Source: Candidatus Harrisonbacteria bacterium RIFCSPLOWO2_01_FULL_44_18
GTDB lineage: Bacteria; Patescibacteriota; Minisyncoccia; UBA6257; WO2-44-18
DNA: 36,488 nucleotides
NCBI GenBank assembly: GCA_001817915.1
Contig: MHJJ01000007.1
Location: 20,020-56,507 of the forward strand
Reading direction: 5' to 3'
Shown here: positions 3,286 to 34,218 of the stretch, one piece after another
Layout: each line of letters opens with the position of its first letter
How positions within the stretch are numbered: the first letter of the stretch is position 1
Made by a program: the position numbers and the translations under genes
Notes under the pieces: generated by a model
Database searches by the model: none
What the model was told of the DNA's origin: nothing
What the model saw: only the letters and a program-made list of their open reading frames with translations

Positions 3286-3328
3286 ATATTTCAGTATAAC
3301 AATTTGGATAAGCTGTCGTCATTGCTGT

Positions 3329-3421
3329 CGTCATTGCGAACGATAAACCATCGTCATTGCGAGCGATAAACCATCGTCATTGCGAACGATAAACCATCGT
3401 CATTGCGAGCGATAAACCATC
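3329..3421. repeat. tandem 23-bp repeat (four units) next to a GIY-YIG element
   Basis: Unit CGTCATTGCGAACGATAAACCAT starts at 3329, 3352, 3375 and 3398; a fifth start at 3421 runs into the left inverted repeat of the GIY-YIG unit. Units alternate GAAC and GAGC at one position, as if pairs were duplicated. The CGTCATTGCGAGCG core is shared with the inverted repeat, so the array probably grew from its outer end. Confidence 0.9.
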
Positions 3422-3450
3422 GTCATTGCGAGCGAAGCGAAGCAATCTTA
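3422..3450 (+). repeat. left inverted repeat of GIY-YIG element 1
   Basis: Starts GTCATTGCGAGCGA and ends GCAATCTTA. The reverse complement of 3754-3790 has the same two ends, with a different middle (an expanded GC-rich hairpin). The pair flanks the GIY-YIG gene at 3466-3756. Confidence 0.8.
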
Positions 3451-3465
3451 CAATAATGTAATAAT

Positions 3466-3756
3466 ATGAATAAACAATTTTACGTCTATATACTGACTAA
3501 TCCAAACAATACTGTTTTATACACGGGTGTTGCCAACAATCTGCGAAAAAGAATTTATCAGCACAAAGAAAAAATTGTCCCTGGATTTACATCAAAATAC
3601 AATCTTACAAAACTAATTTATTATGAAATTTTTGATAATGCTTATAGCGCGATTTCCCGAGAAAAACAAATTAAAGCTGGATCCCGGAAAAAGAAGGTGG
3701 CTTTAATTAATAAAATGAACAGCGGATGGCGCGATTTGTATAAACAGTTAGTGTAA
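3466..3756 (+). CDS. GIY-YIG domain nuclease-like protein, element 1
   Basis: A 96-aa single-domain GIY-YIG protein of the UPF0213/COG3680-type small group. The N-terminal strand FYVYILTNPNNTVLYTGVAN carries the Y-YI(L)...YTG version of the GIY-YIG signature; NLRKRIYQHKEK supplies the conserved Arg and His region; YYEIFDNAYSAISREKQIK holds the metal-binding Glu region. There is no partner DNA-binding domain. Its TAA stop (3754-3756) is the first three bases of the right inverted repeat, so gene and repeats form one compact unit. Cutting DNA is the expected activity of the family; mobility of this unit is inferred. Confidence 0.88.
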   Translation: MNKQFYVYILTNPNNTVLYTGVANNLRKRIYQHKEKIVPGFTSKYNLTKLIYYEIFDNAYSAISREKQIKAGSRKKKVALINKMNSGWRDLYKQLV

Positions 3757-3790
3757 GATTGCCGCGCTCCCTTCGGTCGCTCGCAATGAC
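3754..3790 (-). repeat. right inverted repeat of GIY-YIG element 1
   Basis: Begins with the stop codon of the gene (TAAGATTGC) and ends TCGCTCGCAATGAC. It is an inverted match to 3422-3450 at both ends, with its own internal hairpin (GCGCTCCCTTCGGTCGC). Confidence 0.8.
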
Positions 3791-5184: not shown

Positions 5185-5240
5185 GATTTTGTCTAAATTT
5201 TCGAGCTCGTTTGTGGCGATGAAAATTTAGCCACAAAATC
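5185..5240. repeat. 5'-leader palindrome, copy A (upstream of mutM)
   Basis: GATTTTGTCTAAATTTTC (5185-5202) pairs imperfectly with GAAAATTTAGCCACAAAATC (5221-5240) around GAGCTC. Copy B at 31294-31352 has the same arms and centre. In both cases the element lies immediately 5' of a minus-strand start codon. Confidence 0.75.
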
Positions 5241-5244
5241 GCGC

Positions 5245-5266
5245 ACCCCCTCACTCGAAAATCATT
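5245..5266 (+). repeat. left inverted repeat of GIY-YIG element 2
   Basis: A 22-bp repeat starting ACCCCCTCACTCG, an exact inverted match to 5524-5545. It overlaps the gene's TAA stop (5265-5267, minus strand) by 2 bp. Confidence 0.9.
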
Positions 5267-5522
5267 ATTCGTTAATACTGTTTTTAATTCGCCGTTTTAA
5301 GCTGATATGAGCTTTGGCGCGTCTTTTAATTTGCCTTTCTCGTTCTTGCGCGTCTTTTTCAGATTTGTAGGCCTCATAATAAATAATCTCAAGCGGTCTG
5401 CGCTCTTTAGTCGAGTCAACACGACCGGCATTGTGTTCTTTAAATCTCTTACGCAAATCATTGGTATAGCCAAAATATAAATCTTTATCCTTTAACGACC
5501 GCAAAGTGTAGAAATAATACAT
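5265..5522 (-). CDS. GIY-YIG domain nuclease-like protein, element 2
   Basis: An 85-aa GIY-YIG protein: YYFYTLRSLKDKDLYFGYTN (Y..Y.L...YFGYT signature), NDLRKRFKEHNAG, then IIYYEAYKSEKDAQERERQI, with a basic C-terminus. I take the ATG at 5522 because the frame upstream to 5585 runs through the inverted repeat and lacks an initiation signal. The gene fits exactly between two identical 22-bp inverted repeats: 2 nt from one, overlapping the other. It differs in sequence and repeat type from element 1, so the two are not recent duplicates. Confidence 0.85.
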   Translation of the reverse strand: MYYFYTLRSLKDKDLYFGYTNDLRKRFKEHNAGRVDSTKERRPLEIIYYEAYKSEKDAQERERQIKRRAKAHISLKRRIKNSINE

Positions 5523-5523
5523 A

Positions 5524-5545
5524 AATGATTTTCGAGTGAGGGGGT
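5524..5545 (-). repeat. right inverted repeat of GIY-YIG element 2
   Basis: Exact 22-bp inverted copy of 5245-5266. It begins one base outside the start codon of the GIY-YIG gene. Confidence 0.9.
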
Positions 5546-5602
5546 AAAGGTTTTGTAACCAAAATTTGTTCGCCTCCGGCTCCAAATTTTGGACAAAGCC
5601 CT

Positions 5603-8306: not shown

Positions 8307-8347
8307 GCAATGCCGCGATTTATCTTGTATCCGCAACAATACTTACA

Positions 8348-8389
8348 CAATAACATCCTTACATTCTCAAGTTTGTAAGGATGTTATTG
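8348..8389. repeat. palindromic repeat, copy 3, between the two polA genes
   Basis: Perfect 16-bp arms (8348-8363 and 8374-8389) around the loop TTCTCAAGTT. The right arm encodes the last residues (AITSLQT) of the 5'-nuclease gene, and its TGA stop lies in the loop. Confidence 0.9.
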
Positions 8390-25790: not shown

Positions 25791-26735
25791 CTATTGGTAC
25801 CCGGCTATTTTAACATCTATCTGTATCTTTGTATTTTCTACATCTTGAGCCAAATCTTCTATTTGGTTCTGCAGACTTAATAATTGCATAAAATGCGCCT
25901 CGGCTGTATTTCTCAAAACATCCATATTATAAAAAGTGTCCTGGGGTATTGGTTTGCCCGTGTTGAGGGCGTCAATAGCGATGAATTGCTGATTTAGAGC
26001 GGCGTCGGCAAATTTTATCACTTCATCTCTTTTCGCTTCGGCTTGCGCAATCAAAGGTGGAAGGACAGTAAGGGCAATATGTCTAGCAGGTTGTTCTAAG
26101 GCAGTGAGTTCATTATAAAAGTCGCTGCCGTATATTACGGTACCAACGGTGACCGCAAGAGTGATAGAGTCATTGATTTCTTCGAGTGTAATATCCGCCC
26201 TGTTTCTCGCGCTTAAAATTTTGCCCGTTGCTTCAGCCGCTTTAGTTTTTATTGATTCAATGCCAGCGATTGTTTGCGGACTGGCTATATTTTCGGTTGG
26301 TAATGTGAGCGCTGGCGCCTTAACCGTCTCCAATTGCAATCCTCCGGGTTCGCGCAGAGTTACCAAACCCGGATCAATAGTGAAAAGAATTATGTAGGCG
26401 CCTAAAAGCAGAGCGAGCCCGACAATGGCTTGAGTTATTCTGTCCACTGCGTCTTGTCTGCGTGAGGCATTGCCGGCTGAAACCGTATATTCAATCGCTC
26501 CCCAGACAATCATCGCGAAAGCCACTAATCCGACTACCCCCAAGCCCCAGTTATATATCGCTTTAATGAATTGACCAAGACTGGTAACTTCGCCTGCCGG
26601 GAGGCCGGGTATTGACACGTTAAGTTGGTAACCTTCCGCGAAAGAGGAAAGAGGAAAGAGGAAAGAGGAAAGCAAAATAAAACTAGCCAAACCAAAAGCG
26701 ATAAAACCAACTTTTTTCCTCGTTATTGTTTTCAT
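25791..26735 (-). CDS. pilin-like membrane protein (VirB2/TrbC-type)
   Basis: 314 aa. Signal peptide (about 1-33), then two membrane helices (about 62-85 and 103-122) separated by the short cytoplasmic loop GNASRRQDAVDRITQAIVGL, the arrangement of VirB2-like pilins in this phylum. A long helical C-terminal extension (about 150-314) is not part of classical VirB2. The signal peptide core LSSFLFPLSSF is encoded by four AAAGAGG heptamers (26641-26668). No Shine-Dalgarno. Confidence 0.75.
   Translation of the reverse strand: MKTITRKKVGFIAFGLASFILLSSFLFPLSSFAEGYQLNVSIPGLPAGEVTSLGQFIKAIYNWGLGVVGLVAFAMIVWGAIEYTVSAGNASRRQDAVDRITQAIVGLALLLGAYIILFTIDPGLVTLREPGGLQLETVKAPALTLPTENIASPQTIAGIESIKTKAAEATGKILSARNRADITLEEINDSITLAVTVGTVIYGSDFYNELTALEQPARHIALTVLPPLIAQAEAKRDEVIKFADAALNQQFIAIDALNTGKPIPQDTFYNMDVLRNTAEAHFMQLLSLQNQIEDLAQDVENTKIQIDVKIAGYQ
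26641..26672. repeat. heptamer repeat (AAAGAGG)4 in the pilin-like signal peptide
   Basis: Four perfect units then AAAG; on the coding strand CCTCTTT read in all three frames gives SSFLFPLSSF. Confidence 0.9.
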
Positions 26736-26737
26736 TA

Positions 26738-26758
26738 TTCTTAATTACCAATTACTAA
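26738..26758. repeat. period-7 repeat at a stop codon in the secretion cluster
   Basis: TTCTTAA TTACCAA TTACTAA; the minus-strand TAA of the gene at 26741 lies in the first unit. Confidence 0.6.
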
Positions 26759-27424
26759 CTTTATTGATTCGTTTGCTTGCTCTATTTCGTTCGCGCGGTT
26801 TTTCGCGTTTACGCTTAAATTAATTTCGGCGCTACGTTTGCCTCCGGTTATATTCAGATCTAATATCTCCGGATTAGCGACCGCGCCGCTGGTTTTTTGG
26901 CCATTAGCCGACCACTCGACAATTAATTGGCTAAGATCGGCGATATTAAAGAAGTAGGGCAGGGCGCGAAAACTGTTCAATCCGCTTCGAATTCGATTAT
27001 TGGCGTAGGGAGCGTCAATTACGACTTGGGGACTAACAATGGGTATTGTTATGGATTTTTCCAAGTCGCCCAAAGTTTTATATTTTATTACCGTCATTCT
27101 GATTTGATGAGTTTGGTCGGCAAAGTTGGCAACCGCAAAATTAAACTTTTTAATTCCCTTGCCCGTTTTTTGTAATTTATTATCGAGATACCAGCGAATT
27201 TCATTTTTCGAAAGATCGGCGATTTTATTTTTATCAACCAACTCGAAATTTACTTCTACGGGCGCGCCGCGCGAAGGAAGAATTCTGCCTAAATAATCAG
27301 AAGGCGCGTAGCTGCTTGCTTTCCAAGTAACCAGAAATTCCGGAGCGGCTTGCGAAAAAGAGGAAAGAGGAAAGAGGAAAGAGGAAAGCAGGAAAATTAC
27401 GATCAATATTTTGTTCATGTTCAT
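26741..27424 (-). CDS. secreted Ig-like-domain protein of the secretion cluster
   Basis: 227 aa. Signal peptide MNMNKILIVIFLLSSFLFPL, cleavage near SQAA, then a beta-rich region (LVTWKASSYAPSDYLGRILP, PVEVNFELVDKN, IVEWSANGQKTSG) suggesting one or two Ig-like domains. No membrane anchor. Its signal peptide carries the same heptamer array as its neighbour's (27357-27384). Likely an exported accessory factor; function unknown. Confidence 0.7.
   Translation of the reverse strand: MNMNKILIVIFLLSSFLFPLSSFSQAAPEFLVTWKASSYAPSDYLGRILPSRGAPVEVNFELVDKNKIADLSKNEIRWYLDNKLQKTGKGIKKFNFAVANFADQTHQIRMTVIKYKTLGDLEKSITIPIVSPQVVIDAPYANNRIRSGLNSFRALPYFFNIADLSQLIVEWSANGQKTSGAVANPEILDLNITGGKRSAEINLSVNAKNRANEIEQANESIKLVIGN
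27357..27388. repeat. heptamer repeat (AAAGAGG)4 in the Ig-like protein signal peptide
   Basis: Four perfect AAAGAGG units followed by AAAG, as at 26641, in an otherwise unrelated gene. Confidence 0.9.
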
Positions 27425-27426
27425 TG

Positions 27427-27804
27427 TTAAGATTTTGCCCTTGCCGCCAATGTTCCGCCCTTTGGCGTTTTAACTTTTGCCGCCATTTGAGCCATTTGAC
27501 CGCTTTTTGCGAGCGCGCCCTCTGGATGCCGGTCAGCCCAAATGACTATAAGAACGCCAACGGTGCGTAATGGCAGAGCGCCGACATAAGGGACTAATTC
27601 AGCCACGTTGGCAATAAGATCCGCGGTGCCTTTCACCCCTTTCATTCTAAAATAAACCTGCGTGACCGGAAATGTTAGAGCATCAATGATGAAAAAATCA
27701 TCAAACGCGAAAAGAACCAGAATTATCCCGACTAAATCAGTAAAGCCGAGGTACATTAGTAAAAACACCGCTTCTACTATTGAAATTTTAGGTTGATGTT
27801 CCAT
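27427..27804 (-). CDS. small multi-helix membrane protein of the secretion cluster
   Basis: 125 aa with three hydrophobic stretches (about 10-32, 38-52, 70-92) and a basic, Ala-rich C-terminal tail (KTPKGGTLAARAKS). Not a recognised Vir homologue; position between VirB4 and the pilin-like genes suggests an inner-membrane component, possibly VirB3-like in role only. Confidence 0.65.
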   Translation of the reverse strand: MEHQPKISIVEAVFLLMYLGFTDLVGIILVLFAFDDFFIIDALTFPVTQVYFRMKGVKGTADLIANVAELVPYVGALPLRTVGVLIVIWADRHPEGALAKSGQMAQMAAKVKTPKGGTLAARAKS

Positions 27805-27807
27805 ATT

Positions 27808-27856
27808 CCCAGTTCCCAGTTCCCAGTTCCCAGTTACTAATTACCAGTTACTAGCC
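27808..27856. repeat. heptamer repeat (CCCAGTT)4 plus degenerate units
   Basis: Four perfect CCCAGTT units (27808-27835), then ACTAATT ACCAGTT ACTAGCC in phase. It lies upstream of the 125-aa gene; the virB4 stop (27837-27839) is inside it, and its last residues (LVTGN) are repeat-encoded. Confidence 0.9.
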
Positions 27857-29537
27857 CTTCCTTTTTTGTGGTAATAATTTTGTCTTCCAAATACGATGCG
27901 ATTATTTGGATCGCTACATGATTTAATCCGGCAAAAAATAATCCTTGCCCGACGTTGACTTCCAGCAGAAGATTTTTTTCGCCTTCAGTTAAGTTAAAAG
28001 TTTTAGCGATTAGATCAATCATAGCCGGCGATTGTTTCAAAAGCAGCTGCAGCGATGAATTAGTGATAATCGGCCGGCCGTAGGGCGATCCTACGAAATC
28101 CTCAACGTCTTGAGTAATAGTCGTAACTCCCAGAAAGTATTTTCTGGCTCTTTTGACCAGACCGAATAGAAATGAAGCGCCGTCATGGTGTTTCATCAGC
28201 CACCAGGCCTCATCAATAATCATAACGCGTTTTTTAAGTTCGGCTTTTATCAAATTCCAGATGAAATTTAAAATAATGTACATCGCGGTTGGCCGAAGCT
28301 CTTCTTCCATATCGCGAATGGAAAAAACAATGAGCCGATTTTTGATGTCGATATTTGTCGGCCGGTTGGTAAAACCCGCGTAACTGCCCTTGGTGAAGCG
28401 ATAAAGCCGTTGCGCCAAACCTTGTCCGCCCTCCATATTTTCCAGAACAGTCCGCAAATCTTCCAAAAGCGGCGGTTGAGTTTTGGAAAAATCCTTTCCC
28501 GGAATAATGTCGTGGGCCGCGTATGTTTCGGTGATTGCCCGATCAAGCAACGCCTCTTCGTCGGGAGTAATTTTCCCCAGCATTATTTTCAATAAACCGG
28601 TTAAATTAACGATGTGAGATTTTAACACATTGGCCGGATCTTCATCTTCCGGAATAATCGGAATTTCAAAGGGATTAATGTTATGTTCCGAACTTAAGGA
28701 TATTTTAAAGAAACTGCCACCGACGGCGTTAGCCAAATTTTCGTATTCGTTTTCCGGGTCTATTATGATTACATCCGCGCCAAGCATCAGCTGCCGCAGG
28801 ACTTCTAATTTAGTGGCGTAACTTTTGCCGGCTCCCGATTTGGCAAAGATTACCATATTGGCGTTTTCCAAAGAAAAACGATCAAAGATTACCAACGTGT
28901 TATTATGGCGGTTAACGCCATAGAGTATTCCTTCGTCGGAAGTTAAATTAGCGGAAGCAAACGGGAAAAATGACGACGCGGGGCTGGAATTAAGAGGAGT
29001 ATGAATTGACAATTGATCCAAGCCGAGAGGCAGAGTTGAGCCGAATCCTTCAAGTTGCTGAAAAATCGCCGATTTGGCGTAAACCAGCCGGCTTTCCAAA
29101 AGATTATTAATTTGAGCTTCTATTTTATTGAGATTTTCCAAAGTGTCGGCGTAAATGGTTATGTAAACGCCGATATTAAATAAATTTTCGCGGGATTGCT
29201 GAAGCGTGTCTCGCAAAGATTCGATGTCTTGCAGAGCTGTTTCCAGGACTGGGTTTCGGACCAGCCCTTTTTCTTCTTGTTCGCTGATTTGCGCCTGAAC
29301 TTGAGCGGATTTTTTGCGCAGATTTTTTAACGCTAAAGCCGTGTCTACCGGGTGGATAAAAATAGAAATATCCAAAAGCTCCGGCAAATTGATAAAGGGC
29401 GAAAACCAGCCGGTCGCTAAATAGCGGGGATAAGTGAAAATAAATAAAGTCTTGGCAAATTTGCCTCCTAACTTTAGATAGTTGGAGTTTATTTCCAAAG
29501 CCGGCGGCGCGATTAAATTTTTGATGTCTTCTTGCAT
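27837..29537 (-). CDS. virB4: VirB4-type conjugation/secretion ATPase
   Basis: Cytoplasmic ATPase energising type IV secretion. 566 aa from ATG 29537 (MQEDIKNLIAPP). The frame extends to an ATG at 29561, but those codons lie in a repeat arm. N-terminal part about 30-220 (YPRYLATGWFSPFINLPELL), then the motor: Walker A FAKSGAGKSYATKLEVL (about 235), DPENEYENLA, Walker B RVMIIDEAWWLM (about 440), and Gln-containing TTITQDVEDF. All nucleotide motifs intact. Closely linked to PrgI and TraC-like genes, as in other Patescibacteria. Confidence 0.92.
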   Translation of the reverse strand: MQEDIKNLIAPPALEINSNYLKLGGKFAKTLFIFTYPRYLATGWFSPFINLPELLDISIFIHPVDTALALKNLRKKSAQVQAQISEQEEKGLVRNPVLETALQDIESLRDTLQQSRENLFNIGVYITIYADTLENLNKIEAQINNLLESRLVYAKSAIFQQLEGFGSTLPLGLDQLSIHTPLNSSPASSFFPFASANLTSDEGILYGVNRHNNTLVIFDRFSLENANMVIFAKSGAGKSYATKLEVLRQLMLGADVIIIDPENEYENLANAVGGSFFKISLSSEHNINPFEIPIIPEDEDPANVLKSHIVNLTGLLKIMLGKITPDEEALLDRAITETYAAHDIIPGKDFSKTQPPLLEDLRTVLENMEGGQGLAQRLYRFTKGSYAGFTNRPTNIDIKNRLIVFSIRDMEEELRPTAMYIILNFIWNLIKAELKKRVMIIDEAWWLMKHHDGASFLFGLVKRARKYFLGVTTITQDVEDFVGSPYGRPIITNSSLQLLLKQSPAMIDLIAKTFNLTEGEKNLLLEVNVGQGLFFAGLNHVAIQIIASYLEDKIITTKKEGLVTGN

Positions 29538-29549
29538 ACGCTTACGCTG

Positions 29550-29658
29550 ATGTAATACCAATCAACAAATACATACTAATTATACCAATGAATACGAATA
29601 TAAAATTTATTAGTTGCCATTCGTATCATTAGCATGAATTAGTATATTAGTATTACAT
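29550..29658. repeat. empty inverted-repeat element related to the GxxExxY unit
   Basis: ATGTAATACC at 29550 is inverted as GTATTACAT at 29650-29658. The two arms (about 45 bp each) repeat TACTAAT/ATACCAATGAATACGAA motifs in opposite orientation with only about 10 bp between. The arms match those around the GxxExxY gene at 30336-30807, so this looks like a gene-less (MITE-like) version. It sits between the virB4 and TraC-like genes. Confidence 0.75.
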
Positions 29659-30330
29659 TTATGTTTGTTTCGCGATTTCCAATTCCTTTTTTTCGATTGC
29701 TTCGGGATTGTAGAGGTTGTAGAAAAGTTCGATGATTTCCTCGCGGTTTAAGGGCGCGGCTCGCAGGCCGATTTGAGTCAGGCCGCTTATTATCAAATCA
29801 ACTCTTTGGTTAAGCTGATCCAAGTTATGCTCTAGTTGTTTTTGTTTTTCGGGTTCTGATTGCTCAAGAATCGCCGGCGGCTTTTTCTTAAGGAGTCCGA
29901 AGATTTTTTGCGCCGCTCCGGCGGCCGCTTCAGAAATTTGAATCGGATCGTAAGGCACCACGACAAAAAATGTTTTATTCATAATGGCATTTTCGCTGAT
30001 TAAAGATTTTATGAATTCTCTGTATTCTCCGATTTGATTTTTCAATAATTCGTTCGTTTCCTTGTTTTGAACCTGCTCTAATTTATTGAGATAGTTTTCA
30101 ATGTTTAATTTTCGCGAATGGATAAATTGCTGAAGAGAAAAATTCAGCGAATTGAGAAATCCTTGATAAGCGTAAATAATCAATTGCTGTTCTTCTTCGG
30201 ATTTGAGATCGAAATTGACGCCCGATACCATTAAAATTTTACGAAGGCCGCCGTTTTTTAAAATTACGGCGTCGTTTTGAATGGCTTCAATCTCTATAAA
30301 TTGTTGAGTCGGCAAAGCTTCTTTAGGCAT
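29659..30330 (-). CDS. TraC-like domain protein (VirB4 partner)
   Basis: 223 aa. QQFIEIEAIQNDAVILKNGG resembles the N-terminal domain of VirB4/TraC ATPases, which in this phylum is often a separate gene before virB4. It continues with coiled-coil-prone helices (LNKLEQVQNKETNELLKNQI) and FFVVVPYDP. The C-terminus APLNREEIIELFYNLYNPE is characteristic. Likely binds or regulates VirB4; inferred from position and resemblance. Flanked on both sides by inverted-repeat elements. Confidence 0.75.
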   Translation of the reverse strand: MPKEALPTQQFIEIEAIQNDAVILKNGGLRKILMVSGVNFDLKSEEEQQLIIYAYQGFLNSLNFSLQQFIHSRKLNIENYLNKLEQVQNKETNELLKNQIGEYREFIKSLISENAIMNKTFFVVVPYDPIQISEAAAGAAQKIFGLLKKKPPAILEQSEPEKQKQLEHNLDQLNQRVDLIISGLTQIGLRAAPLNREEIIELFYNLYNPEAIEKKELEIAKQT

Positions 30331-30335
30331 TGTAG

Positions 30336-30385
30336 TGTAATACCAATATACTAATGCATACTAATTATACTAATGAATACGAATT
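30336..30385 (+). repeat. left inverted repeat of the GxxExxY unit
   Basis: AT-rich arm (GTAATACCAATATACTAATG...GAATACGAA), an imperfect inverted match over about 45 bp to 30757-30807. It encodes the last residues and stop of the gene. Confidence 0.8.
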
Positions 30386-30769
30386 TTTATAATCGGGACT
30401 AGTATCTTTATCGATTCTGACTATTCTTAGTGGCTTGATATAATACGTTCTAAAATTGATCAATAAACCCAATCGTATCCTTGAACTTTGTAGGTAGCGC
30501 TGCAGTTGACGATAATCTTCGCGGATTACGGTTCGTTTTGCTTTTATTTCGAGAACAATCTTATTGTCTATTAAAAAATCAACTTTATCCCCGGCATCGC
30601 CGATTGAAAACTCTCTTTTATAAGGAATTTTTGCTTCCTTAAGTTTTTCTTCTATTGTGTCTGCGTATTGTTTTTCGCGAGCAAATCTACCTTTTTCATT
30701 ATGGACAGCAAAACAAATGCCTACAATGGCATAAGAAAGTTCTGGATAAATTAATTTATTAGTATTCAT
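30365..30769 (-). CDS. GxxExxY family nuclease-like protein
   Basis: 134 aa from the ATG at 30769 (MNTNKLIYPELSYAIVG); a Met three codons upstream is also possible. GRFAREKQYADTIEEKLKEA carries the family G...E..Y block, and VDFLIDNKIVLEIKAKR the D...ExK core of a PD-(D/E)XK nuclease fold; RQLQRYLQSS and LGLLINFR follow as in the family. Catalytic-type residues are present. Both gene ends lie inside the flanking inverted repeats. It is inserted, co-oriented, between prgI (stop 30808) and the TraC-like gene (start 30330), so it is cargo in the operon rather than part of the secretion system. Confidence 0.88.
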   Translation of the reverse strand: MNTNKLIYPELSYAIVGICFAVHNEKGRFAREKQYADTIEEKLKEAKIPYKREFSIGDAGDKVDFLIDNKIVLEIKAKRTVIREDYRQLQRYLQSSRIRLGLLINFRTYYIKPLRIVRIDKDTSPDYKNSYSLV

Positions 30770-30807
30770 TTGTATCATTAGTATGAATTCGTATATTAGT
30801 ATTTCAT
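30757..30807 (-). repeat. right inverted repeat of the GxxExxY unit
   Basis: Inverted partner of 30336-30385 (reverse complement AATACTAATATACGAATTC...AATGAATACTAA). It includes the ATG and first codons of the gene and ends 1 bp before the prgI stop codon. Confidence 0.8.
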
Positions 30808-31296
30808 TTATCTGTAATCAATTCGTCTGGCGGCTTCTCTTTCGCCGGTCAATTTTCTGAATAATTCAAATTTTTTCTCTAAACGTTCGGGCGGCCGGAA
30901 AGTTTTTTCTCTTTTAGTCAGCGCCTGGGTGCTGGTCGTCAGTCTTAGCCAGAGATTTTGAAGAGGACTCTTGGCTATCGGTTGGGCCTCAAGAAGAGGG
31001 CGCTGGGGAGCGGCTTCCGTTCGTTGCCAAAGATAAAATTTTGGCTGCCAAAGATAGGAAAACGCCGATTTAACCAATGTTGAAATCGGCCGGCCGTTAT
31101 ATTTGGCAAAAGCGAGGACCGCCGCCGTGGAACCGAAAAGAGCGGCGACAATAAACCAAAGCCAGGTTTGCAGTACGAAAAAAAGCAGAAAGCTTAAAAT
31201 GCCGGCCGCGGCAAGGTAGAGAAATTGCCTTAAAGTCAGCGGGCCGACTATTTTATCTTCTATTTCAATAAATTGTGGAACCTGGAACTGTGCCAT
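30808..31296 (-). CDS. PrgI family protein
   Basis: 162 aa. FQVPQFIEIEDKIVGPLTLR, then two adjacent membrane helices (about 25-65), then a cytoplasmic basic tail. This is the PrgI pattern of gram-positive conjugation and Patescibacteria secretion clusters (a VirB3-like position ahead of VirB4). The ATG lies inside leader palindrome copy B, whose hairpin would cover it. Confidence 0.85.
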   Translation of the reverse strand: MAQFQVPQFIEIEDKIVGPLTLRQFLYLAAAGILSFLLFFVLQTWLWFIVAALFGSTAAVLAFAKYNGRPISTLVKSAFSYLWQPKFYLWQRTEAAPQRPLLEAQPIAKSPLQNLWLRLTTSTQALTKREKTFRPPERLEKKFELFRKLTGEREAARRIDYR

Positions 31297-31352
31297 GTTT
31301 GTCTAAATTTTTTGAGCTCATGCGTAGCGAAGAAAATTTAGCTACAAACATG
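31294..31352. repeat. 5'-leader palindrome, copy B (upstream of prgI)
   Basis: CATGTTTGTCTAAATTTT (31294-31311) pairs with AAAATTTAGCTACAAACATG (31333-31352) around TGAGCTCA. Same arms and centre as copy A at 5185-5240. The prgI ATG is in the paired arm. Confidence 0.75.
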
Positions 31353-31385
31353 AGCATCCCGCCGAGGCGGGACGCCATACATTTA

Positions 31386-32105
31386 TTATAATTTCGTTCT
31401 AAAATTGCTGTAATGCACCACCCTCCCCTTATTTTGTTTAGCAGTTTCCAACTTTACTTCAACCGGTTTTTCCGATGGTGGTTTTGCCGCCGCCGGCGCT
31501 CTAAAAACAAATGAGGGTCTTGGGATTTGTTTTTCCTCCGTTAATTTAGCGGTTGTCGGTTCCTCATGAAGGATAAATGGCGTTTCACTTGCCGGCTTTG
31601 GCGGTTGACTTTTGATTTCTGGGAATGGCATCGCCGTTGGTTTAGAAATTTCAGGAGTTTTAATTTCCGGAGTTTTTTCTATTTTCAGCGCGGGAGCGGT
31701 TGCGGCCCATCCTTTTTCCTTAGTCGCCGCGACTGGTCGTTTGCTTGCTTGCTCTTCTCCAAGATAAATTAGTTTCGCGTCAATGCCCAATTCGTTTTTT
31801 AACGTTGTTTCCACGGGATTTAAGATTTTTTCTTCGATTTCTCTCGCGATAATTTTTGCCGCCGAAAAACTTATGTCCAGTCGCGCGCTTAATTCCCGAG
31901 TAAAGTCCTGTGGCCGAATTTCCATTGTTGCCAAGTCGTAAATGATGCTTGGAAGAATTGATTGACGTTCGTTGACAAACCCCAGGCGGCGATTAATCGC
32001 CATAATAGCGTAAGTCAGCCGATTTGAAGCCAACCATTCCCGAATTAAGGGCGGCAGTGAGCTGAAATCTATTGTTGTTTTAGCGGGCGTTAAAGCGTCA
32101 AGCAT
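31386..32105 (-). CDS. Pro-rich cytoplasmic protein of the secretion cluster
   Basis: 239 aa. Structured helical N-terminus (about 1-115; PPLIREWLASNRLTYAIMAI, FTRELSARLDISFSAAKIIA), then a long Pro/Glu/Lys-rich disordered tail (IEKTPEIKTPEISKPTAMPF) ending KGRVVHYSNFRTKL. No membrane segment. Family-level function unknown; its position between the VirB6-like and PrgI genes suggests an adaptor. Confidence 0.65.
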   Translation of the reverse strand: MLDALTPAKTTIDFSSLPPLIREWLASNRLTYAIMAINRRLGFVNERQSILPSIIYDLATMEIRPQDFTRELSARLDISFSAAKIIAREIEEKILNPVETTLKNELGIDAKLIYLGEEQASKRPVAATKEKGWAATAPALKIEKTPEIKTPEISKPTAMPFPEIKSQPPKPASETPFILHEEPTTAKLTEEKQIPRPSFVFRAPAAAKPPSEKPVEVKLETAKQNKGRVVHYSNFRTKL

Positions 32106-32127
32106 ATTTAAATATATAAGTTAAATA

Positions 32128-34218
32128 TTATTTTTTCTTTTCTTCAGCTTCTTTTTTTTGAGCCGCTTGGGCCGTCGCGGCTTCGGCTGACATTTTTTCC
32201 GCCATTTTGTCGAAGTATTCGCCAAAATCCTTGAAGTCCTCCCGATTTTCTTTGACGGCTTCTTTCATAGCGCCCATAAAAGCGGAGTTGCCGAGTATCA
32301 GATTCGCCGCTTCGTTTTCCGGCTGTTCTTTATTCAGGGTAATCGCGACCTTAGCGATATTGATTACTTGGTCGCGCGAACCCTCTTTGGCAATAAATTC
32401 TCGATGGGCGGGCGTTAACTTTTCAAAGACGCGCCTGTCTTTAAGCGCTATGGCATCCACTTTTTCAATTAACGCTCTTGGCGACATTTTGCCCAAGATA
32501 TCCGCGATTTCTTTGTCGCTTCCCAAATCAAGGCGATTTTCCAAGATGTCTTTTTGGGTGCCCATTTTGCGGGCCGCGTCCAGCATCGCTTTAGTCGCCG
32601 CGTCATTTGATTTTTTGACGCGATCTTTTTCTCTTTCATCCGTTATTTTTTCCGGATCCCCGTATAATTTGTCCGTGAGCTTGAATTTCGCCGCTTTTGA
32701 AGCAAGGGCGGCCGCCAATTCTGGATTTAATAACCCGCCCGGTTTTTTAATCGCGTTAGTTACCATCTCGGGAGTCCAGTTGTCCATTTCTTTCGCGTAT
32801 CCCTCAACGCCTTTTTTACTCGTGGCAACCAGATTGCTAAGGCCGGTAGCGGCGCCTCGCAAGCCCGGAACGCGTATCAAATTATTAGCCACCCTTTGCG
32901 CCCAGCTGGGCGTTGCTTTGCCGGTTGCAGGATCAATTTTACTGCCGGCTCTTAACAAGGAGCGCCCGGCAAAACCGCCGGTAGCGGTGATTTGGCCGAT
33001 AGCCCAGCCCTTAACTCCATTGGCCATACTCATAAAAGCGCCGGCGCCATAAATGCCGAAAGAATTAGCCGCTATCAAACCGCCAACCAAAAGTCCCAAA
33101 ATAACAACCATTCGCGCGAAAGTTTCAAATGGATTGGCAATTGTTGTTAGAAGTATGGTTTCGGCTCCCCCGCCGGCGCCAACCATCTTGATGATATCTA
33201 TCGGCGAAGAGGGATTTTCTGCTTGATTATGAACGAGCAGAATCGTCAGATAGAGGAAAAAGGTAGCCGCCGGCATGAAAAACACCCATTTCATAAAATT
33301 ACTCCACCACTTGCTCCAATTACTGGCTAAATTGGGAAAAATCCAGAAAAGCCAGGCAAGCGGCATTAAAATCAGCAAAATTGTCAAGGCGATATAGCGA
33401 ATAAATAACATTGCCGCCACGCCCAGGAGCGCGATTGCCCCCAAAACAGTAAAAAGACTGACAAAGGATAAACTGGCAATGGCGCCAAACATATTAGCTC
33501 CAAATTCCGGTAATCCTTCAAAACCTCTTAAGTCATCCGCGGTAATTTTCATAAGTTGTTGCGCGCCAAAACTGCTTGCCAGGGCATTGGCGAATTGATC
33601 AAGATTTCCCTGGGTGGCTTTTGAGATAAATAGATTGCTGATTACTCCGGAAAGATCTATAAAAACGCCGGCGATAACCAAGCTGAAATTAACCAAAAGA
33701 GCGACGACCACCAATTTCCAAAGAGTCTGTTTTAGGGCGTATGATTGCTGTCTTAAAATAGTGGCAAAAGCGATAACAATTATCGCCAAAACAAATCCGA
33801 GATTAGCCAAATCGCGGGTTACCACCCAACCGGCCGCCACTGTCGGGCTGTCAATAAGCTGGCTATTCATTGTCAGGCCAATTTTTATTAAAAATCCGCC
33901 AAGCGTGAATAGTACCGCGGCAATGTATCCGATGAAATAATTTATAACATAAGTGACAAAGCCGACTACTTTACCCAGCACTGCTAAAATGCCTTGACCG
34001 ATTTCGCTGATAGCCCAGGCGCGTATGCCTCCTCCTTCTCCGGGTGTGCCAGACAGTTCAAATGCCGGGTCGCCAACGATTGGTCCGGCAGGCGCTTCAA
34101 ATGCCGGGTCGCCAACGATTGTTCCGACTTCGGGCAGTTCTTGCGCAAAAACAATCGGCAGATTAACTATTAATCCGGCGATCAAGACAGCCAAGATTAT
34201 TTTTAGATATTTACTCAT
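32128..34218 (-). CDS. VirB6/TrbL-like polytopic membrane protein
   Basis: 696 aa. Signal-like N-terminus, then a short duplicated motif IVGDPAFE (about 34 and 48), followed by about seven membrane helices (about 75-400; IAAVLFTLGGFLIKIGLTMN, ANLGFVLAIIVIAFATILRQ, LILMPLAWLFWIFP, WKLVVVALLVNFSLVIAGVF) and a 250-aa charged cytoplasmic C-terminus ending in Lys/Glu. This is the TrbL/VirB6 layout; the motif WSKWWSNFMKWVFFMPAATF is typical of the Patescibacteria version. Core channel protein by inference. Confidence 0.8.
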   Translation of the reverse strand: MSKYLKIILAVLIAGLIVNLPIVFAQELPEVGTIVGDPAFEAPAGPIVGDPAFELSGTPGEGGGIRAWAISEIGQGILAVLGKVVGFVTYVINYFIGYIAAVLFTLGGFLIKIGLTMNSQLIDSPTVAAGWVVTRDLANLGFVLAIIVIAFATILRQQSYALKQTLWKLVVVALLVNFSLVIAGVFIDLSGVISNLFISKATQGNLDQFANALASSFGAQQLMKITADDLRGFEGLPEFGANMFGAIASLSFVSLFTVLGAIALLGVAAMLFIRYIALTILLILMPLAWLFWIFPNLASNWSKWWSNFMKWVFFMPAATFFLYLTILLVHNQAENPSSPIDIIKMVGAGGGAETILLTTIANPFETFARMVVILGLLVGGLIAANSFGIYGAGAFMSMANGVKGWAIGQITATGGFAGRSLLRAGSKIDPATGKATPSWAQRVANNLIRVPGLRGAATGLSNLVATSKKGVEGYAKEMDNWTPEMVTNAIKKPGGLLNPELAAALASKAAKFKLTDKLYGDPEKITDEREKDRVKKSNDAATKAMLDAARKMGTQKDILENRLDLGSDKEIADILGKMSPRALIEKVDAIALKDRRVFEKLTPAHREFIAKEGSRDQVINIAKVAITLNKEQPENEAANLILGNSAFMGAMKEAVKENREDFKDFGEYFDKMAEKMSAEAATAQAAQKKEAEEKKK

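Follow-up and report, generated by a model that had tools for sequence, protein, structure and literature searches.

A GxxExxY nuclease gene bounded by inverted unit arrays as a candidate mobile element at a secretion-operon seam

The segment 30336–30806 of the window (the whole 36,488-nucleotide stretch of Candidatus Harrisonbacteria DNA analysed here) is, on balance, probably a self-contained small mobile element, driven by the nuclease that it encodes, which would work on its full unit in cis and would also serve gene-less palindromes in trans. Comparison among genomes establishes, at the level of sequence, a unit that is mobile and seam-preferring, with arms and protein that evolve jointly and gene-less copies that multiply; that the mobility is driven by the nuclease itself is what we infer from these patterns. 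The proposed element would consist of an inverted pair of ATACNAAT arrays around one GxxExxY PD-(D/E)XK nuclease ORF, and members of its class insert repeatedly, in sense, at the stop/start seams of operons. The arms would bring a stop and a start codon with them and fill the whole gap, which would leave the host operon unbroken, and the ORF would be expressed from the host transcript. The nuclease may then bind the arm units and cut DNA at its own ends or at an empty seam, leading to the copying or moving of the unit; no classical transposase would take part.

The repeat-bounded unit and its place in the operon

The features of the unit and its surroundings are collected in Table 1. The inverted repeat is imperfect, with arms of 49 nt that are 86% complementary, and has a local score of 63; 1000 Markov shuffles gave 19 on average and 31 at most. 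Both the start and the stop codon of the enclosed ORF lie within the arms, as the original prediction had proposed from the letters alone. It had also allowed the unit 0–6 bp to spare between its neighbours, and the actual figures are one base to the prgI stop (T at 30807) and five to the ATG of the gene for the N-terminal part of VirB4, virB4N (TGTAG, 30331–30335). No rRNA family was found in 26000–32500, which places the element outside any rRNA gene, between prgI and virB4N. Rfam gave no gathering-level match in this search, RsmY (26.8 bits) falling far below its cut-off of 57.

Table 1. Features of the unit, the adjoining operon and the other repeat-bounded units of the window
Feature	Position	Strand	Description	Evidence
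5' arm (operon sense)	30758..30806	-	inverted array of about 5 ATACNAAT units; holds ORF start codon	repeat search, shuffles, family unit analysis
GxxExxY / PDDEXK_3 ORF, 137 aa	30365..30778	-		Pfam, NCBIfam, alignment, AlphaFold2, Foldseek
3' arm	30336..30384	-	inverted copy of 5' arm; holds ORF stop codon	repeat search
prgI	30808..31296	-	host gene upstream (PF12666)	Pfam
VirB4/TraC, N-terminal part	29659..30330	-	host gene downstream	NCBIfam NF041427, NF045975, NF045971
Gene-less palindrome (MITE-like)	29551..29657	-	arms of the unit's family, between virB4N and virB4C	98-100% identical copies elsewhere in genome
15-nt tail CAGCGTAAGCGTATG of gene-less copies	29535..29549	-	start codon at its end	genome pattern search, copies lined up
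VirB4/TraC, C-terminal ATPase part	27837..29561	-	ORF as listed	NCBIfam NF045971, 373.8 bits
Lone arm of GIY-YIG-type element	31297..31360	-	immediately upstream of prgI	alignment to arm 5188-5266
GIY-YIG unit	5188..5597	-	ORF 5265-5585	between inverted repeats 5188-5266 / 5524-5597
GIY-YIG unit	3422..3790	+	ORF 3466-3756	between inverted repeats 3422-3459 / 3744-3790

The sole ORF of the unit encodes a PDDEXK_3 protein (PF13366, E 3e-20, 73.1 bits against a cut-off of 22; TIGR04256 GxxExxY, E 1e-18, 67.5 bits against 35), and Pfam detected no transposase in the full-length unit. In an alignment of a diverse GxxExxY set, E35, Y38, D67 and K79 are invariant and E77 is nearly so, with the catalytic D and E-x-K of PD-(D/E)XK enzymes conserved. 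The AlphaFold2 model (pLDDT 87.6) matched, in Foldseek, Cas4, lambda exonuclease, the archaeal Holliday-junction resolvase Hjc and the homing enzyme I-Bth0305I (best E 2e-3, probability 1.0). The predicted fold and the conserved residues thus agree with the PD-(D/E)XK-like core foreseen for GxxExxY proteins. The protein is likely an active DNA nuclease, because E35/Y38/D67/E77/K79 is the set of residues found in metal-dependent DNA nucleases. GxxExxY domains also occur within long open frames (570–890 aa) of several genomes (loci L092, L093, L094, L096, L097, L100 and L103, and G000:C8:21635-21979).

The N-terminal VirB4/TraC gene resembles CD1110/TrsD-type ATPases (NCBIfam) and is present in 56 of the 61 genomes searched. 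Traces of such elements stand at three successive seams of the operon, namely the palindrome between virB4N and virB4C, the unit between prgI and virB4N, and the lone arm before prgI, whose best match, a GIY-YIG arm of the window, scores 62 (shuffled maximum 23). For the C-terminal VirB4/TraC part, the ATG of the tail (29535–29537) is a likelier start than the listed one. A role for the gene-less copy as the splitter of virB4 was ruled out, since the N- and C-terminal parts are already separate adjacent genes in most relatives; separate and joined states are mixed within the family. Elsewhere in the operon, near-identical purine-rich tandem repeats (AAAGAGG; window 26633–26674 and 27349–27390) lie early in two neighbouring secretion genes, one of them a T4SS pilin.

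Occupancy of operon seams and repeat architecture in relatives

Whether the unit is an insertion was judged from the surroundings of virB4N in relatives. The prgI/virB4N seam is mostly a short spacer, of 12–86 nt in 16 of the 28 relatives. In others it holds a four-helix gene of the 23S-rRNA-IVS type (G001, G007, G011, G075) or a different GxxExxY gene (G064, and a divergent one with its own repeats, after start correction, in G009), these alternative cargo genes each lying in an inverted repeat of their own. A repeat-free GxxExxY gene at this junction, which would have pointed to an ordinary operon member, was absent from the loci read. The seam upstream of prgI is likewise used, by GxxExxY genes in G033, G053 and G075, four-helix genes in G009 and G027 and a GIY-YIG gene in G052. 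The seams rpsG/fusA, pilB/pilC, prfB/ftsE and prgI/virB4, named from the flanking translations, are each occupied in several genomes. GxxExxY proteins at the same site mostly form no clade of their own, with a partial exception upstream of a polB-like gene; because same-site genes are mostly not closest relatives, repeated independent insertion is suggested, and vertical inheritance at shared sites was ruled out, save in part at the polB-like seam. These comparisons support the view, which the original prediction had put forward, that the unit is an insertion in the secretion operon. That it could instead be an ordinary operon member, or a host regulatory hairpin with a chance ORF, is hardly credible: such units do lie nearly always in operons and in sense, but the seam lacks the gene in most relatives and carries unrelated repeat-bounded genes in others, and same-site genes are mostly not monophyletic.

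Several spacers have features of their own. One that seems empty (L067, G003) appears to contain a single arm of a different GxxExxY arm type (TTCGTATATTAGTGCTTGATTCGTATATTGGTGAAGTT), and four prgI/virB4N spacers (L065, L074, L079, L084) contain short tandem heptamers, perhaps scars. In many empty spacers among L065–L091, TATAAT precedes the ATG by a few bases, which suggests leaderless transcription from the start codon and may bear on copies that end exactly at ATG. At rpsG/fusA, where other genomes have GxxExxY units, the spacer of L231 (G041) contains an apparent gene-less palindrome of a different kind.

The generality of the architecture was examined by scoring the best inverted repeat around each gene in all fetched loci, with a threshold score of at least 30. 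It was reached by 39/48 GxxExxY, 12/12 four-helix and 6/8 GIY-YIG genes, compared with 9/204 control ORFs of similar size (Fisher p ~1e-37), rates that describe the families sampled and not genomes at large, as the loci were picked by gene family or arm. Several of the nine control ORFs above the threshold are RAYT genes or themselves adjoin elements. Among the GxxExxY misses, L080 and L119 score 37 and 48 after start codon correction and L071 scores 52 on its full frame; the very divergent gene L116 (G091) is without arms. In a second set, drawn from GTDB contigs and named MAGs, 31 of 33 relatives have inverted repeats above all shuffles; this set is mostly Patescibacteria and overlaps the first in part. 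Its relatives were found with a narrower alignment, the broad one (A1) being too diverse for collection scans, and the named relatives of the element's gene are mostly Parcubacteria-group MAGs. Outside Patescibacteria, 7/15 GxxExxY genes are above all shuffles (three genomes, reached via Bacteroidales, Pelagicoccus and Bacteroidetes loci), so that the architecture is partially general there. The arms at these loci (L246–L261; Bacteroidetes, Pelagicoccus) consist of CACAGAG, ACGAATGC, ACTCAAAGG or ATATAAGG units, the same design in about half of the cases. Viral spread was considered and set aside, no relative of the element being present in IMG/VR.

Within the genome itself, the six GxxExxY genes are all divergent from one another, four of them lying between inverted repeats of their own with a related composition, and four of five GIY-YIG genes have inverted repeats. 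The transposase-less lifestyle that the original prediction ascribed jointly to GxxExxY and GIY-YIG units holds as an architecture, both GIY-YIG genes of the window lying in inverted repeats; mobility by way of the nuclease is the conjectural part. Beside the GIY-YIG unit at 3422–3790 are four tandem 23-bp repeats (TCGTCATTGCGAGCGATAAACCA; 3328–3442), and a GTCATTGCGAGCGA motif also occurs in the arms of that unit.

Arms and gene-less palindromes

The arms of the unit are inverted arrays of ATACNAAT units spaced 8–10 nt; GxxExxY arms in general are arrays of CNAAT-type units, mostly at a spacing of 7–11 nt, and four-helix arms are built of other short tandem units. Leave-one-out assignment from arm to cargo family was right in 46/57 cases (shuffled mean 18, maximum 39). 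Arm similarity also correlates with protein identity (Mantel p 5e-4 for GxxExxY, 0.0075 for four-helix), computed with no separate control for host relatedness; this correlation is a prediction of joint movement of arm and gene, and simple joint descent would give it too.

Folding predicts a long hairpin in RNA, with z -3.5 for the unit and -5.3 for a gene-less copy. In gene-less copies, the two arms mismatch at 66% of the N positions of CNAAT and at 12% of the other positions, and on the sense strand G.U mismatches total 122 vs 101 A.C, i.e. no G.U excess. A conserved RNA stem should favour G.U, and recognition of the units by protein is therefore the better reading; the absent excess and the mismatches at the degenerate base of the unit speak against a conserved stem. 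The arms look more like protein-recognition arrays than like conserved RNA stems, and the RNA could still fold.

Copies of the arm were sought throughout the genome (752 kb, 14 contigs) and occur at about 16 places, most of them gene-less palindromes. The expectation that a GxxExxY gene would always lie at the centre of the repeat failed here, many copies in this repeat family being empty. The gene-less palindromes are about 105–120 bp long and lie directly after a stop codon and directly before an ATG, several of them in one ribosomal-protein operon (gene names from translated starts). Full-length copies of the main group are 98–100% identical and end in the tail CAGCGTAAGCGTATG; the next gene takes its start codon from the final three bases of this tail. 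Around the loop the palindromes keep matches to the opening and closing few codons, and so look like gene-bearing units from which the interior was deleted.

Another genome (G019) has six essentially identical gene-less copies (100/100 aligned bases) at six seams; one of these seams carries no copy in a congeneric genome. The empty site has a different 30-nt spacer and is therefore not exact; no clean empty/filled pair was found, nor was a target-site duplication seen in the six copies. Recent movement is seen for gene-less copies only, since the six GxxExxY genes of the window's genome are all mutually divergent. Gene-less palindromes are present, away from the GxxExxY gene, in 9/9 sampled genomes with the window's GxxExxY clade vs 12/92 without it (p 1.4e-7); in those 12, loss of the gene, incomplete assembly or another mobiliser could be involved. 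Units with an ORF share the direction of both neighbouring genes in 49 cases vs 1, and the G019 gene-less copies lie in both orientations, so the sense bias of the ORF-bearing units probably reflects expression of the ORF. Gene-less copies overall are codirectional in 34/40 flanked pairs, not above the 80% background.

Known systems and competing explanations

Among described elements the rRNA intervening sequence (IVS) comes closest: the unit has its architecture but differs from it in location and cargo. The 23S rRNA IVSs of Leptospira and Coxiella (PMC4990558) likewise comprise a single ORF of ~120–140 aa in inverted repeats, have short tandem units, are sporadic and lack a transposase, and in the present genomes the IVS protein itself occurs at the same operon seams as another type of cargo. 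In contrast, the present elements lie at mRNA gene junctions and not in rRNA, the unit encodes a PD-(D/E)XK nuclease, and its arm mismatches are unlike those of a selected RNA stem. Insertions in CPR rRNA genes have the same hosts and overlapping cargo families, with GIY-YIG and 23S_rRNA_IVP ORFs, the GIY-YIG ones resembling neither group I nor group II introns (PMC11270868). That report concerns 16S/23S genes, where LAGLIDADG introns dominate, and its text is without the terms GxxExxY and protein-coding genes. MITEs and their parent insertion sequences share with the present elements the terminal inverted repeats and a full unit with many gene-less deletion derivatives, but here there is no transposase, no target-site duplication was seen, and the arms are arrays of degenerate units. 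REP/RAYT systems similarly comprise intergenic palindromes multiplied in trans, but the RAYTs of this genome have other hairpins, and the present protein is not a Y1 transposase. In the literature search, which covered most matches through their abstracts, no paper on inverted-repeat units with GIY-YIG in CPR was found, and the other abstracts were without such units; in the parts of the literature retrieved, GxxExxY has rare, incidental mention.

Among the alternatives to a nuclease-driven element with recognised arms, homing is unlikely as the main process. In this scheme the nuclease would leave its own arms alone and cut a conserved operon of a DNA partner where the seam is empty; host recombination, through the homology of the flanking genes, would then copy the unit in, and the arms would only protect host expression. 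Free-standing homing endonucleases (GIY-YIG, or the I-Bth0305I/EDxHD type) are likewise small nuclease genes at conserved sites with no intron or intein; the unit does occupy a conserved site that is empty in relatives, independent lineages recurrently use the same highly conserved seams, and the predicted fold resembles I-Bth0305I. Unlike such genes, however, the present elements have inverted unit-array arms, many seams and gene-less derivatives. Homing into cognate sites accounts poorly for a single lineage spread over many seams and for gene-less copies at mutually unrelated seams of one genome, and arm sequence would not be expected to track the protein as it does. A parasite at the level of RNA, in the manner of the 23S rRNA IVS, is decidedly unlikely. 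Its arms would be an RNA stem in the polycistronic mRNA, excised or opened by RNase III and tolerated by the host, the protein acting on RNA or being irrelevant. It draws on sister elements at the same seams that encode the 23S_rRNA_IVP protein (PF05635), on the Coxiella IVS, in which heptameric repeats adjoin the S23 ORF and RNase III excises the sequence (PMC4990558), and on the strong predicted folding and the sense bias; but the balance of G.U and A.C mismatches, their concentration at one position of the unit, as in a degenerate recognition unit, and the two orientations of the G019 copies all speak against it. It is also improbable that the GxxExxY genes are cargo of palindromes that owe their movement to an unrelated transposase, such as a REP-associated tyrosine transposase. 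Three Y1/RAYT genes in the genome and the palindromes in the 12 genomes that lack this GxxExxY clade would suit this reading, but arm type follows the cargo protein and the RAYT genes have their own, unrelated hairpins, which ruled them out as the mobiliser; an 8-mer scan of the three RAYT loci found no ATACKAAT units.

Returning to the nuclease-driven element, we regard the unit as a novel variant of the rRNA intervening sequence kind, and there is a fair chance that the elements together form a class of their own. It is possible, if tentative, that this is a previously undescribed class of transposase-free elements of operon stop/start seams, in which inverted arrays of a short unit recognised by protein surround one small gene with interchangeable cargo (GxxExxY PD-(D/E)XK, GIY-YIG or 23S-IVS four-helix), with movement in cis and mobilisation of gene-less palindromes in trans; the classical rRNA intervening sequences would then be one branch, noticed through hitting rRNA. 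The spread of rRNA intervening sequences and the roles of S23 and GxxExxY proteins are, to our knowledge, questions of several decades' standing. Their architecture recurs here with many copies in ordinary operons, a nuclease cargo, unit arrays, gene-less derivatives and a presence/absence pattern among genomes, and the question of IVS spread is now accessible to direct binding, cutting and mobility assays. Such a class would suggest a function for two large protein families annotated as uncharacterised and would explain part of the gene-seam repeat content of the tiny Patescibacteria genomes.

Other repeats were met in the course of the comparison. Three RAYT-type Y1 transposase genes (L163, L164 and L159) have flanking hairpins of their own, perfect over 28–30 nt in L163 and L159. 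In the window, a 47-nt hairpin repeat (AACATCCTTACATTCTCAAGTTTGTAAGGATGTT) of a different palindrome family is present in three copies (299–345, 686–732 and 8343–8389), two of which flank a 99-aa ArsR/MarR-like ORF adjoining ruvA.
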